DNA of 34,265 nt, from NCBI GenBank assembly GCA_947587925.1, contig CANPYF010000004.1, positions 1 through 34,265 on the forward strand. The letters run 5' to 3'. Position numbers and translations under genes: made by a program. Of the stretch, positions 6,692-10,946 are shown one piece after another. The notes under the pieces are model-generated. The model had not been told where the DNA came from. It saw nothing but the letters and a program-made list of their open reading frames with translations, and searched no databases. Every line of letters starts with the position of its first letter. The first letter of the stretch is position 1. Source of the DNA: an uncultured Ruminococcus sp. Its GTDB lineage: Bacteria > Bacillota > Clostridia > Oscillospirales > Ruminococcaceae.

Positions 6692-6874
6692 GTGAAAGCA
6701 ATGAACGTAATGGCTTTGGCAAAAGGCGCAAGTGCAGGTATCGTTGCCGGTGCGGCGGTCTATGCTTATACCAACGCTCGGTCAAGCAAAAAGCGCAGAC
6801 TTAAATCAAAGACTGCAAAGGCGATACACGCCGTCGGAGATATTGCTGAAACAATGGCTGAATTTATGTTCTGA
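6692..6874 (+). CDS. Small (60 aa) protein with one TM helix and basic region, unknown
   Basis: SD TCGGAGGTG before ATG; 'AKGASAGIVAGAAVYAYTNARSSKKRRLKSKTAKAIHAVGDIAETMAEFMF'. Confidence 0.7.
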   Translation: MKAMNVMALAKGASAGIVAGAAVYAYTNARSSKKRRLKSKTAKAIHAVGDIAETMAEFMF

Positions 6875-6920
6875 CCTATGTTCGGCATTTTAACGGTTAT
6901 AGAAATTTTTAGCTTTAAAC

Positions 6921-6955
6921 AAGGGCTGTGTGATCTTTATGGTCATGCAGCCCTT
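6921..6955 (+). terminator. Terminator hairpin separating the small ORF from the kinase module
   Basis: AAGGGCTGTGTGATC-TTTAT-GGTCATGCAGCCCTT: 15-bp stem including three G:U wobbles, followed by a weak T tract (CTTTTATC). Confidence 0.7.
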
Positions 6956-6992: not shown

Positions 6993-7021
6993 TTGACATA
7001 AAAAAACAAAAATGCTATAAT
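6993..7021 (+). promoter_or_regulatory. Perfect-consensus sigma70/SigA promoter for the kinase module
   Basis: TTGACA (6993-6998) - 17 nt - TATAAT (7016-7021); ATG at 7046. Confidence 0.9.
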
Positions 7022-7045: not shown

Positions 7046-8179
7046 ATGTATATATCTGCCGATGAAACAAATGAATTTATAAATGATGAATATACGGATA
7101 GTTTATTTGAAAGCATTTGCTTTGACGAACCTATAGATCCTGCCACCTGTGATGATGTGATAAACGGTATCGAAAAAAAGATGGATTTTGATGACATTTA
7201 TATTTTTCGGGAAGGCGTTGCAGACAGGCTTACACAGCTTGGTACTGCCTGTTCGGCGGAAGATACCGATATTATGCTGGCTGAGGTAAAATGCAGATAT
7301 AAACAGCTGCTTGATAAACCATGCCCGAGAACAGTACAGGAATGGATAAAAGGAACGACTCCGGGTACGACCAACAGGCAGAATAATTACGAACTTTGCT
7401 ATGCGCTTGAAATGGATTATAAACAGACAAGGCTGTTTTTTCAAAAATGTTTTCTCACTCTTCCTTTTAATGTAAAAAGCAAAACGGACGCGGTTTTTAT
7501 GTATGCGCTGTATCATAATAAACCGTATTCGGTCGTTAAAAAGCTTCTGACAGGTTCAAATGGATTTGTTTCTCAGCAATATGCGCATACCTCGACCTCG
7601 CAGATAGCCGCTGTTATTTTTCAAACAGATGATGATGAAATATTTCTGGAATATTTGTCAGCCCATTGTTATGACAATGAACAGCAGTTTCAGCTTGCAA
7701 GATCTTATATAAATAAGGAAATATCTCTGCTGAAAACAAAGATCGCTAACGATAGTATCATTGACACGGCATCTCCGAACAGGCTGAACAGCCGCGCGAT
7801 AAGCGAACTGCTCGGTTATAAATATCAGCTTAGCGATAAAAAAAGCCGTACCCGCGTACTTCCCAAACGGTTTACCGAATCACTTCCCAATGATGTGACC
7901 TTGGGTAAAATAATAAATGGCGAAACCGCTTCGTACGAGCTGCTTCGCAAGACGCTGATGCTGCTGAAATTTTATAATTTTTATTCGGAGGCTGAAAATA
8001 CCGAAAATGAAAATATATACCGCAATCTTTTAGATTTTTTTGACGAGCTTAACGCCGCGCTGACATCATGCGGTTTTGCACAGATATATCTGCGGAATCT
8101 TTTTGACGGTATGCTTTTTTACTGCGCTAATTCATACGACCCGATACTTACTATGCATCTTTTGAATGAATGGAATTGA
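7046..8179 (+). CDS. Uncharacterised 377-aa helical protein, partner of the kinase-STAND protein; possible regulator-like segment
   Basis: The ORF-track start at 6878 lies upstream of promoter and terminator, so ATG 7046 (GCGAGG SD) is preferred. Segment 'VQEWIKGTTPGTTNRQNNYELCYALEMDYKQTRLFFQKCFLTLPFN' looks like a degenerate XRE-type helical segment. Confidence 0.8.
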   Translation: MYISADETNEFINDEYTDSLFESICFDEPIDPATCDDVINGIEKKMDFDDIYIFREGVADRLTQLGTACSAEDTDIMLAEVKCRYKQLLDKPCPRTVQEWIKGTTPGTTNRQNNYELCYALEMDYKQTRLFFQKCFLTLPFNVKSKTDAVFMYALYHNKPYSVVKKLLTGSNGFVSQQYAHTSTSQIAAVIFQTDDDEIFLEYLSAHCYDNEQQFQLARSYINKEISLLKTKIANDSIIDTASPNRLNSRAISELLGYKYQLSDKKSRTRVLPKRFTESLPNDVTLGKIINGETASYELLRKTLMLLKFYNFYSEAENTENENIYRNLLDFFDELNAALTSCGFAQIYLRNLFDGMLFYCANSYDPILTMHLLNEWN

Positions 8180-8237
8180 TTTTTATATCTGCCCGTTAAA
8201 ACAGCGTATAATATATTCATAAGGACGGTGATAAGCA

Positions 8238-10946
8238 ATGGCAAAAGAGGCTGATATTATCAGATCGGACAGCCGCGAATATACAATAATAAGGCTGCTT
8301 GGAAAAGGCGCTAATACCAATGCTTATCTTGCCGAATATAAGCAGGGTGAATTGACAGGCAAATGTATTTTAAAGGAATTTTCTCCGCACGAATCAAGCG
8401 ATAACGAGCGCGGCAAAGCGAATTTTATCGCTTCGGGCAAAATGCAGAATAAAATACGGCAGCTGTCGGCTCTGAATAATCAGACACCGCCTATAAACCG
8501 AATATTTGAAGCAAACGGTACGGTTTATATTGATACGGCTTGCTTTAACGGCAATACTCTTGACAAGCTTGACGGACTTGATCTGACGCAATATATGTCG
8601 ATATGCCGTTCAATTGCAAAAACTGTCGGATATTATCACAAGGAAGGTTATATCTGTCTTGATCTTAAACCCGAAAATATATTTATAATGCAAAACGCCC
8701 CCGACGATACGATAACGCAGCTTGTTGAATTTATTGATTTTGACAGCATACGCAGTCTTTCAAATAACGGCAATGAGATGTTTTTTCCCTATACGCCCGC
8801 ATGGGCAGCTCCCGAACAATCTTCACCTTGTTCTGTAAGAAAAATAAGCAAAGCCGCGGATATTTACGCTATTGGAGAGATAATTTTTTACATTTTGTTC
8901 GGACGTCATTCAGAGAATACGGAACACAGGGGATTTTCAAAATATTCATTTGAAGAATGTAAGCCCGAATACAGAAAATTCACCGCAAGACCTGACATTC
9001 AAGCGCTTTTTACGCGGCTGTTCAGGAATACGCTTCGTTCTTCTGCCGTCAACAGATTCAAAGATACGGAAGAAATAGTAAAACTGCTCGATACACTTAT
9101 TGCCGAAATAGAACGCAAGGACTATATTATTCCGTCAATTCCGTCAGCTTCTCCGAATTTTGTCGGAAGAGATGAGGAACTAAAACAGATAACGGAATTT
9201 TTGAAAAATGACCGCGTGTTGTTTATAACGGGAGTAGGCGGTATCGGCAAGAGTACGCTTGTCAAAAATTATATCAAGAAAAATAAGGCTGAATATGATA
9301 TAATAGTATATCTTGAATTTGACGGCGACATTAAACATACTTTTTGCGACGATCTTCAGCTTCAGATAAGTACGGTACGAAAAAGCGGCAATGAAAGTTT
9401 AGACGAATATTTTGTACGCAAGCTGACAAGCCTTAAATACATTTGCGGCGAAAAACAAGTGTTATTTATACTTGATAATTTTTATGGCAAGATAACAAAA
9501 GAGCTTAGTCGGATAATAAGCTGCGGTTATGATACATTTATAGTAACGAGGAATATGCCGCCTAAAAACAGCTTTGCGGTAATGGAGATAGGCTCGATAA
9601 CGAATAAAGCAGATTTGTTCAGACTTATCTCTGCTGACCTCGAAAGACAGCCGACAAAGGACGAAAGGCTTTGCTTTGATGAGATAATAATGCTTGTACA
9701 GGGTCACACGCTTGTTATAGAACTGATAGCGCGGCAGATCGCAGCGGGCAGGATAGATGTTCACACGGCTCTTGGACTTATCCGCGAAAAGGGATTTTCG
9801 CGCTTTTCTGATGAAAGGATAGGCAGTTATAAGGACGGAAAAGAGGTATACGACACGCTGTCGAATATTATTTCTGCAATGTTTGATATAAGCGATATGA
9901 GCGATACGGCAAGACATACGCTAAAACTCCTTGCCTTACTTAATGAGCGCGGACTTGAAAAAAGTCTCGTGCAGAGCTTTTTTCCCGACATCAGTTCTCA
10001 GACGCTCTCTTCTCTTTCTGCCGAAGGCTGGCTGTACTATGATGAACGTATCAGACTTCATTCCGTTATCGCCGAAACCGTTCGCGGTCAGCAATGGAAC
10101 GCTGATGATGTTACTGTTATGGAATATCACAAAAAAGCGATCGACATTTATGTGGGTATGGCGAATGCTTATCAGATCAAAAAAATACTGCATGAAGCCG
10201 ACCTTTTCAGAGAACAGCACCCGCGGCATATTATAACGGCAATGTATTATGATATGCTCGGCTGTTATTATGACACTTTAGCCGACGGCAGATATGTTCC
10301 CTACACTCAAGAAGAGGAAGATATTTTAATGAATTTGCTCGACGCTATGGACACAGCGATAGAACAAATGGAACTTTCGACCGACATCCGCCGCAAAAAA
10401 TACTTAAATCAATATTATTTGTCCATGGCGAGTATTCTGATACGAAGTGTTCCGGAACTTTTTTACGATGCCGCCGAACTGCTTGACAAGGTGTATAAAA
10501 ATATTGAGAAAAATAGTGACGACCACTGTTATTACTGTATGGTATCGGCTTGGTATCATACGCTCGCAAAGCCCGATATTAAAATAACAAAAAGTTTGAC
10601 CGAGCAGGCGGAGCAAATTGCAAAGCAGGTATTTAAAACTGATCTGGAAATAATTGATATTATTCACATTCCCACGGCAAATTGCTTTTTTTATCATAAC
10701 GATCTGCTCTTGGCAGAAAACAAAATAAAAGAAGCAATTGATCTGTGTGAAAATCATCCGAATATACTGCCATATATTGACAAAAAAGCGGAGCTTTTCA
10801 ATTGCTTGCTGGACATTTATTTTGAAATGGGTGATACCGCCGAATGCCGCAAGGTCATAAAAGAGATAGATATTATCAACGAAAAATACCGTGATGAAGG
10901 AATTTTCAGGGAGGTTTCTCCTGAGATACGGGAGCAAATCGAATAA
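8238..10946 (+). CDS. Ser/Thr protein kinase fused to an NB-ARC/STAND-like NTPase and helical (TPR-like) C-terminus
   Basis: Kinase: 'LLGKGANTNAYLAEY', 'CILKEF', 'YICLDLKPENIFI', 'EFIDFDSIRS', 'WAAPEQSS...ADIYAIGEIIFYIL'. STAND: 'FVGRDEELKQITEFL', Walker A 'ITGVGGIGKSTLVKNY', Walker B 'VLFILDNF', 'TFIVTRNMP', 'GHTLVIELIARQI', winged-helix-like 'LSAEGWLYYDERIRLHSVIAETVR'. Confidence 0.88.
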   Translation: MAKEADIIRSDSREYTIIRLLGKGANTNAYLAEYKQGELTGKCILKEFSPHESSDNERGKANFIASGKMQNKIRQLSALNNQTPPINRIFEANGTVYIDTACFNGNTLDKLDGLDLTQYMSICRSIAKTVGYYHKEGYICLDLKPENIFIMQNAPDDTITQLVEFIDFDSIRSLSNNGNEMFFPYTPAWAAPEQSSPCSVRKISKAADIYAIGEIIFYILFGRHSENTEHRGFSKYSFEECKPEYRKFTARPDIQALFTRLFRNTLRSSAVNRFKDTEEIVKLLDTLIAEIERKDYIIPSIPSASPNFVGRDEELKQITEFLKNDRVLFITGVGGIGKSTLVKNYIKKNKAEYDIIVYLEFDGDIKHTFCDDLQLQISTVRKSGNESLDEYFVRKLTSLKYICGEKQVLFILDNFYGKITKELSRIISCGYDTFIVTRNMPPKNSFAVMEIGSITNKADLFRLISADLERQPTKDERLCFDEIIMLVQGHTLVIELIARQIAAGRIDVHTALGLIREKGFSRFSDERIGSYKDGKEVYDTLSNIISAMFDISDMSDTARHTLKLLALLNERGLEKSLVQSFFPDISSQTLSSLSAEGWLYYDERIRLHSVIAETVRGQQWNADDVTVMEYHKKAIDIYVGMANAYQIKKILHEADLFREQHPRHIITAMYYDMLGCYYDTLADGRYVPYTQEEEDILMNLLDAMDTAIEQMELSTDIRRKKYLNQYYLSMASILIRSVPELFYDAAELLDKVYKNIEKNSDDHCYYCMVSAWYHTLAKPDIKITKSLTEQAEQIAKQVFKTDLEIIDIIHIPTANCFFYHNDLLLAENKIKEAIDLCENHPNILPYIDKKAELFNCLLDIYFEMGDTAECRKVIKEIDIINEKYRDEGIFREVSPEIREQIE

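Follow-up and report, generated by a model that had tools for sequence, protein, structure and literature searches.

A 34,265-nt stretch of DNA from an uncultured Ruminococcus sp. (contig CANPYF010000004.1, positions 1 to 34,265; hereafter the window) carries a two-gene module, UP-KIN, which is the subject of this analysis. UP encodes a protein of 377 aa and KIN a protein of 902 aa in which a Ser/Thr kinase is joined to a STAND NTPase. An earlier note, made by a model from the sequence alone, had singled out both open reading frames (ORFs), and its coordinates and strand, together with the 58-bp gap between the two + strand genes, were borne out to the base. The module comprises the following features.

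7046..8179, + strand: UP, a 377-aa protein best read as a tandem Cro/C1-like helix-turn-helix (HTH) protein, partner of the kinase (ORF calls, profile searches, structure model)
8238..10946, + strand: KIN, a 902-aa kinase-STAND-helical repeat protein (ORF calls, Pfam, homologue alignment, AlphaFold2 [AF2], Foldseek)
8265..9107, + strand: Hanks-type Ser/Thr kinase domain, KIN residues 10-290 (Pkinase 1.7e-16; conserved catalytic residues)
9135..10097, + strand: STAND NTPase and winged-helix region, KIN residues 300-620 (Pfam, alignment, AF2, Foldseek)
10107..10940, + strand: helical-repeat C-terminus, probable sensor, KIN residues 624-901 (AF2 helix pairs, predicted local distance difference test [pLDDT] about 90)
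7196..7558, + strand: predicted HTH module 1 with two-helix extension, UP residues 51-171 (hhalign to short HTH forms; AF2 helices)
7595..7597, + strand: codon of Thr184 of UP, candidate phosphoacceptor (conservation in 43 divergent UP-family members)
7841..8176, + strand: HTH-like module 2, UP residues 266-377, interrupted between helices by an insertion (hhalign to short HTH forms)

KIN joins an intact kinase to a STAND switch

All motifs that the earlier note had quoted for KIN are present, namely LDLKPEN at residue 141, DFD at 167, VGRDEEL at 309, GVGGIGKST at 332, FILDNF at 410, TR at 437, GHTLVIEL at 489 and LHSVIAE at 607. By sequence, KIN has the makings of an active Hanks-type Ser/Thr kinase, with a Pkinase match and with K46, D142, N147 and D167 kept; its catalytic loop reads CLDLKPEN, without the usual His and Arg of the HRD motif. 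Within the NTPase region, the STAND landmarks are the P-loop (G332-K338), the Walker B residue D413, the sensor R438 and an MHD-like His, H608. In an alignment of 14 homologues reaching down to about 22% identity, D142, K144, N147, D167, the P-loop, D413, R438 and H608 are invariant and K46 is near-invariant. Because the key residues of both active sites are invariant across these homologues, the kinase and the NTPase both appear to be selected for activity.

The AlphaFold model of KIN (mean pLDDT 84, predicted template modelling score [pTM] 0.64) consists of a kinase domain, a STAND core with winged helix, and a superhelix of helix pairs. When it was searched with Foldseek, the top match was a solved STAND-TPR structure, 6mfv_A (E 3.9e-11), with kinases, CED-4 and plant NLRs ranking below it. 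Taken together, sequence and model indicate a STAND NTPase with P-loop, Walker B, sensor Arg, a winged helix bearing a conserved His, and a superstructure-forming C-terminus. The Pfam matches of this region (ATPase_2 2.3e-7, AAA_16 1.6e-6, NB-ARC 5.2e-5) are all weak, lying just under the curated cut-offs, by which KIN can be assigned to neither the NB-ARC nor the NACHT subtype. The fastest-evolving stretch of KIN, residues 626-760 (45% mean identity versus 56-63% elsewhere), falls within the helical repeats, and its rapid change is what one would expect of a sensor. One KIN copy (L015:7184-8665) lacks residues about 460-867 while keeping frame, kinase, P-loop and the last 35 residues, either as a natural truncation or as an assembly artefact.

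UP resembles a tandem HTH protein with a near-invariant threonine

UP matched no family in Pfam, NCBIfam, PADLOC or PHROG, and its profile had no significant match among PDB sequences. Membership in an unrelated housekeeping family, which the earlier note had named as an outcome that would speak against its reading, was thus searched for and not found. The label "uncharacterised" holds for direct family matches and gives way at the level of profiles, where tandem HTH-like modules emerge. Specifically, profile searching of 396 genomes at order level and 388 at class level returned distant full-length relatives as well as short ones of 140-175 aa, which are Cro/C1-type HTH proteins (6 of 12 members match HTH_31, at up to 1.2e-9). 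In hhalign, the profile of these short forms aligned to each half of UP on its own, to the N-terminal one with P 98.1% and E 6.4e-14 and to the C-terminal one with P 95.6-95.8% and E 1.1e-8 to 7e-9, each E-value being that of a single pairwise comparison; column-shuffled, reversed, middle-region and KIN-segment controls reached at most 0.6%, and the reversed and shuffled ones at most 0.2%. Because one profile aligns to both halves with controls near zero, UP looks like a tandem duplication of HTH-plus-two-helix modules, and two tandem Cro/C1-like HTH modules are the best reading. Module 1 contains a recognition-helix-like segment, PRTVQEWIKG, at residues 94-103. The AF2 model of UP is all-helical and confident (pLDDT 84.7, pTM 0.84), with a helix pattern compatible with Cro/C1-type HTH proteins.

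The short module also occurs elsewhere. In Oscillospirales (L136-L150) it is often fused to the C-terminus of a macro-domain-like protein with a vWA-like gene adjoining, the domains being judged by eye, which suggests that it serves other conflict or stress systems too. Fused proteins of integrative elements that look like HTH-STAND chains (L052-L058) were considered as Rosetta-stone evidence and dropped, as their N-termini match neither UP nor the short forms (hhalign 0.7-1.3%).

Between the two modules, one residue stands out. The Thr184 column held T in 28 and S in 1 of 29 sequences of a 30-member set reaching down to 14% identity to the window UP; with 13 further members the tally was T 39, S 1, E 1, G 1 and one gap (n = 43). 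These counts were identical in three MAFFT modes despite differing alignments. The two misfits each have a T one residue off, so they are likely misaligned. A weaker Thr column exists at the N-terminus, and no comparably conserved Ser/Thr column was found elsewhere in the UP body. Being the only strongly conserved Ser/Thr there, Thr184 is the best candidate phosphoacceptor, and it may be the target of phosphorylation by KIN.

The two genes travel together as a mobile cassette

Co-conservation of the two genes, on which the earlier note had made its reading depend, was examined in 199 genomes of the family. Seven carry an intact UP, the same seven carry an intact KIN, and none has one intact gene alone (Fisher p 5e-13, a value that overstates independence because the genomes are related); two further genomes hold a fragment of only one gene. 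Order and adjacency are kept in every intact close copy, and both persist in different families, among kinase-STAND relatives so distant that identity is about 25%. Against this record, the idea that UP and KIN are unrelated genes adjacent by chance, for which no evidence was found, has next to no probability, and the proposal that UP is a dedicated partner gains from the strict co-occurrence as well as from the absence of a housekeeping match.

The association of UP with kinases extends beyond KIN. Among 45 UP-family loci, a kinase-domain gene directly abuts 33 and lies within three genes in 36, and such pairings span Clostridia. Several of the adjacent kinases lack a STAND domain and share an operon with a PP2C phosphatase or an FHA-ABC protein. 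Since 33 of the 45 loci abut kinases, STAND-less ones included, the UP HTH family is best described as kinase-associated. Three loci (L099, L103 and L185) are operons of PP2C, a Ser/Thr kinase, an FHA-ABC transporter-like ATPase and a UP-family HTH protein, the FHA-ABC part being a 772-aa fusion.

The cassette is patchy, decaying and horizontally mobile, as comparison of genomes showed. Flanks of close copies are unrelated, and a gene for an integrase, serine recombinase or relaxase is frequently close by. Within the window's genus, 3 of 13 genomes (the window, G942 and G949) have an intact or nearly intact pair, two copies are cut by contig ends, one genome has only fused fragments, and several lack the module; in G949, a fragment of UP additionally adjoins a type I restriction-modification operon. 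At the leuD site of ten sister species leuCD is conserved; no clean empty-site pair can be drawn, since the module and pdxK are both absent nearby. Remnants were seen in two genomes without an intact module, one of the C-terminal 135 aa of KIN (L048:6756-7163) and one of the C-terminal 37 aa of UP (L049, G190:C4:62487-62603). A search for UP relatives in phage records found none.

Some relatives lie in defence neighbourhoods

On plasmid pRUMAL01 of Ruminococcus albus 7, the pair (its proteins 60.8% and 64.4% identical to those of the window) belongs to an island of toxin-antitoxin, BREX and CBASS genes, flanked by a PIN/antitoxin pair on one side and by BrxL, E1-E2, JAB and a CBASS-type 2TM effector on the other; no annotated CD-NTase was found in the stretch examined. 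The accessions of this pair are WP_013483441.1 for UP and WP_013483440.1 for KIN. Other copies adjoin a PsyrT-like helicase (2.8e-248), a HerA ATPase or an AAA_13 defence-candidate protein, and a CRISPR-Cas-like operon, recognized by eye, lies beside a relative in L212. In lineages G487 and G673, which belong to different families, the stretches read have only three genes in common, UP, KIN and, after KIN, a gene for an NYN-domain RNase (domain matches 6e-34 and 3e-33; 50% identical to each other). In close copies, the next co-directional gene encodes a secreted or membrane-anchored protein in 8 of 11 cases versus a background of about 26% (p 0.0015), DUF6591 in four of them; the count is a rough one, made by hand with a simple hydrophobicity rule. 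Neither an NYN RNase nor a DUF6591 or lipoprotein gene lies next to the window pair.

At two loci (L181:4740-10949 and L186:5513-8000) two further genes follow the pair. One encodes a protein of 544-547 aa that has no match in Pfam, the other a HerA-like ATPase of 1029 aa (DUF87 1.4e-12), and together they may form a defence system of their own. A plasmid of Butyrivibrio proteoclasticus, pCY186 (L225), carries UP with a 1106-aa kinase-STAND protein, and a caspase-family gene lies about 3.4 kb downstream.

A strong promoter precedes the module

The two elements upstream of UP are these.

6921..6955, + strand: terminator-like hairpin of 15 pairs that would shield the module from the genes before it (terminator scan)
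6993..7021, + strand: sigma-A promoter matching the consensus at 12/12 positions, TTGACA-17 nt-TATAAT, with an extended -10 TG (promoter scan)

The module's own terminator and promoter, which the earlier note had placed here, are thus present. The terminator scan gave 4 sites in the region versus 3.9 expected by chance, the stem at 6921-6955 being by far the longest. The UP frame can be extended upstream to an ATG at 6878, giving 433 aa; because hairpin and promoter sit between this ATG and 7046, the latter is the likely start. The 12/12 promoter with 17-nt spacer is found in 9 of 11 close orthologues versus 8 of 103 other ORFs of the same loci (Fisher p 2e-7); the R. albus 7 copy falls short of perfect. 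We predict from this arrangement that UP and KIN form a single operon under a strong promoter.

Proposed mechanism and alternatives

How might such a module work? The reading we favour, and to which we give an even chance, is that of a STAND-gated kinase whose action on UP, with Thr184 as the most likely site, would set free an effector or relieve a block on transcription. The helical-repeat C-terminus of KIN would sense a trigger, upon which nucleotide exchange, probably with oligomerization, would activate the N-terminal Ser/Thr kinase, as knowledge of the family suggests. Activated KIN would then phosphorylate UP, conservation pointing to Thr184 at the junction of HTH module 1 and the middle region. 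Phosphorylation could in turn alter the binding of UP either to its own promoter and a neighbouring effector operon, in the manner of CapS, or to a partner effector protein, in the manner of VapS. The output probably serves defence or a stress response and varies between copies.

We favour this scheme because CapK-CapS and VapKSC show the same logic with unrelated domains. In the former, a kinase phosphorylates a repressor and so releases the adjacent immune operon; the related VapKSC comprises a kinase, an antitoxin-substrate and a VapC-like RNase (PMC13373217). Shared with UP-KIN is a kinase with a co-encoded regulatory partner beside immune operons (PMC13373217), and the RNase third gene of VapKSC has a parallel in the NYN RNase of the two distant lineages. 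The domain families differ, CapK being a GHKL kinase with STAS domain and CapS a STAS-winged HTH protein (PMC13373217), whereas Pfam found no GHKL or STAS domain in UP or KIN and Pkinase plus NTPase instead. With its STAND switch, helical sensor and domain in the N-terminal effector position, KIN also resembles PH0952-type STAND-TPR proteins (6mfv), CED-4, plant NLRs and Avs/bNACHT, from which it is set apart by an N-terminal domain that is an intact protein kinase and by a dedicated HTH partner. Of the roles that the earlier note had offered for UP (substrate, sensor or transcriptional effector), substrate combined with HTH regulator fits best.

Several observations weigh against the favoured scheme. 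Thr184 is the first residue of a helix in the UP model, so it may possibly serve as a structural N-cap instead; Asp and Asn also cap helices, and neither was seen at this column among the 43 members. The HTH similarity of UP is clear only via the short intermediates and mostly over helices 4-5 and the extension; because the alignments cover mainly helices past the recognition helix, DNA binding by UP is a prediction. A whole-fold Foldseek search of UP against PDB gave no significant match, and no operator palindrome was identified. In about a quarter of the UP-family loci the HTH gene has no kinase gene next to it, and some of these loci lie at contig edges. The window copy sits between leuCD and a pyridoxal-kinase-like gene and has metabolic neighbours only, with no recognizable effector and no defence gene beside the pair, and the defence neighbourhoods of relatives are individual examples, not enrichment statistics. 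The stress- or phage-responsive role proposed in the earlier note accordingly draws support from context in some relatives (the R. albus 7 island, type I restriction-modification, PsyrT-like helicase, HerA/AAA_13 and CRISPR-Cas-like loci) and none from the window's own surroundings.

One alternative, which we regard as unlikely but deserving attention, is a toxin-antitoxin or abortive-infection system. Here, phage infection would trip the STAND switch, and the kinase would itself be the effector (HipA-, PD-T4-6- or Stk2-like), phosphorylating essential host proteins, with the HTH protein as a HipB-like antitoxin and autorepressor. As in HipB-HipA, a Cro/C1-type HTH gene precedes a kinase gene, the strong promoter could be repressed, and mobility and defence-island context would suit such a system; phage protection by a HipA-type kinase with a predicted DNA-binding partner is on record (PMC13092281). 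The kinase domain also resembles those of PD-T4-6, Mad6, Stk2 and KKP, its best PADLOC matches being defence kinases (Mad6 1.3e-21, PD-T4-6 5e-18, Stk2 1e-6). These matches are, however, limited to a generic kinase domain plus linker, those to mad6 of MADS and to PD-T4-6 spanning only KIN residues about 10-340, and NCBIfam MAD6 scores 39.9 bits against a cut-off of 460. The other genes of these systems are absent beside the pair, and no MADS or PD-T4-6 companion is recognizable next to the window pair, although no systematic search was made. HipA belongs to a different, non-Hanks kinase family, HipB is small with one HTH, HipBA lacks STAND and helical repeats, and no HipA match to UP-KIN was among the Pfam, NCBIfam and PADLOC matches listed. 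Moreover, the length of UP (377 aa), its two modules and its conserved internal Thr make it look more like a substrate, and the same HTH family accompanies signalling-like kinase/PP2C/FHA operons.

Operons of that kind, in which many UP relatives sit, would suit stress or envelope signalling outside defence. In this reading KIN would sense a metabolic or envelope cue and UP would control adjacent secreted lipoprotein (DUF6591) genes, as the excess of secreted or membrane-anchored products downstream of close copies might suggest. We consider this rather improbable: a core stress pathway would not usually be so patchy, decay or change its insertion site inside a single genus, a lipoprotein gene of this kind is missing beside the window copy, and some copies lie inside defence islands.

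More tentatively than the mechanism itself, we suggest that UP may represent an undescribed phospho-switch family (tandem HTH with a near-invariant threonine) that is a dedicated substrate of diverse clostridial Ser/Thr kinases, the STAND-fused form being an NLR-like sensor that phosphorylates an HTH repressor or antitoxin and thereby releases an RNase or other defence effector. What is new is that an NLR-like switch, a Hanks kinase and a tandem-HTH partner come together, and that the partner's family has been recognized; each domain by itself is already known. No description of the UP-KIN pair was found in the literature searched, which, coverage being partial, is weak evidence of novelty. 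If the suggestion is right, STAND/NLR-like bacterial sensors could pass on their signal through a kinase and its dedicated substrate, where others use a domain that is itself toxic, and many orphan clostridial Ser/Thr kinases would acquire a candidate substrate together with its site. The pair is carried by a cultured strain, R. albus 7, and hence is experimentally accessible.

Other features of the window

Neither Rfam nor tRNA scans gave a hit in the window, and repeats in the region are chance-like. Downstream of leuD, a 60-aa ORF at 6692-6874 may encode a small membrane-anchored protein; it is 84% conserved after leuD in the sister genome G942.

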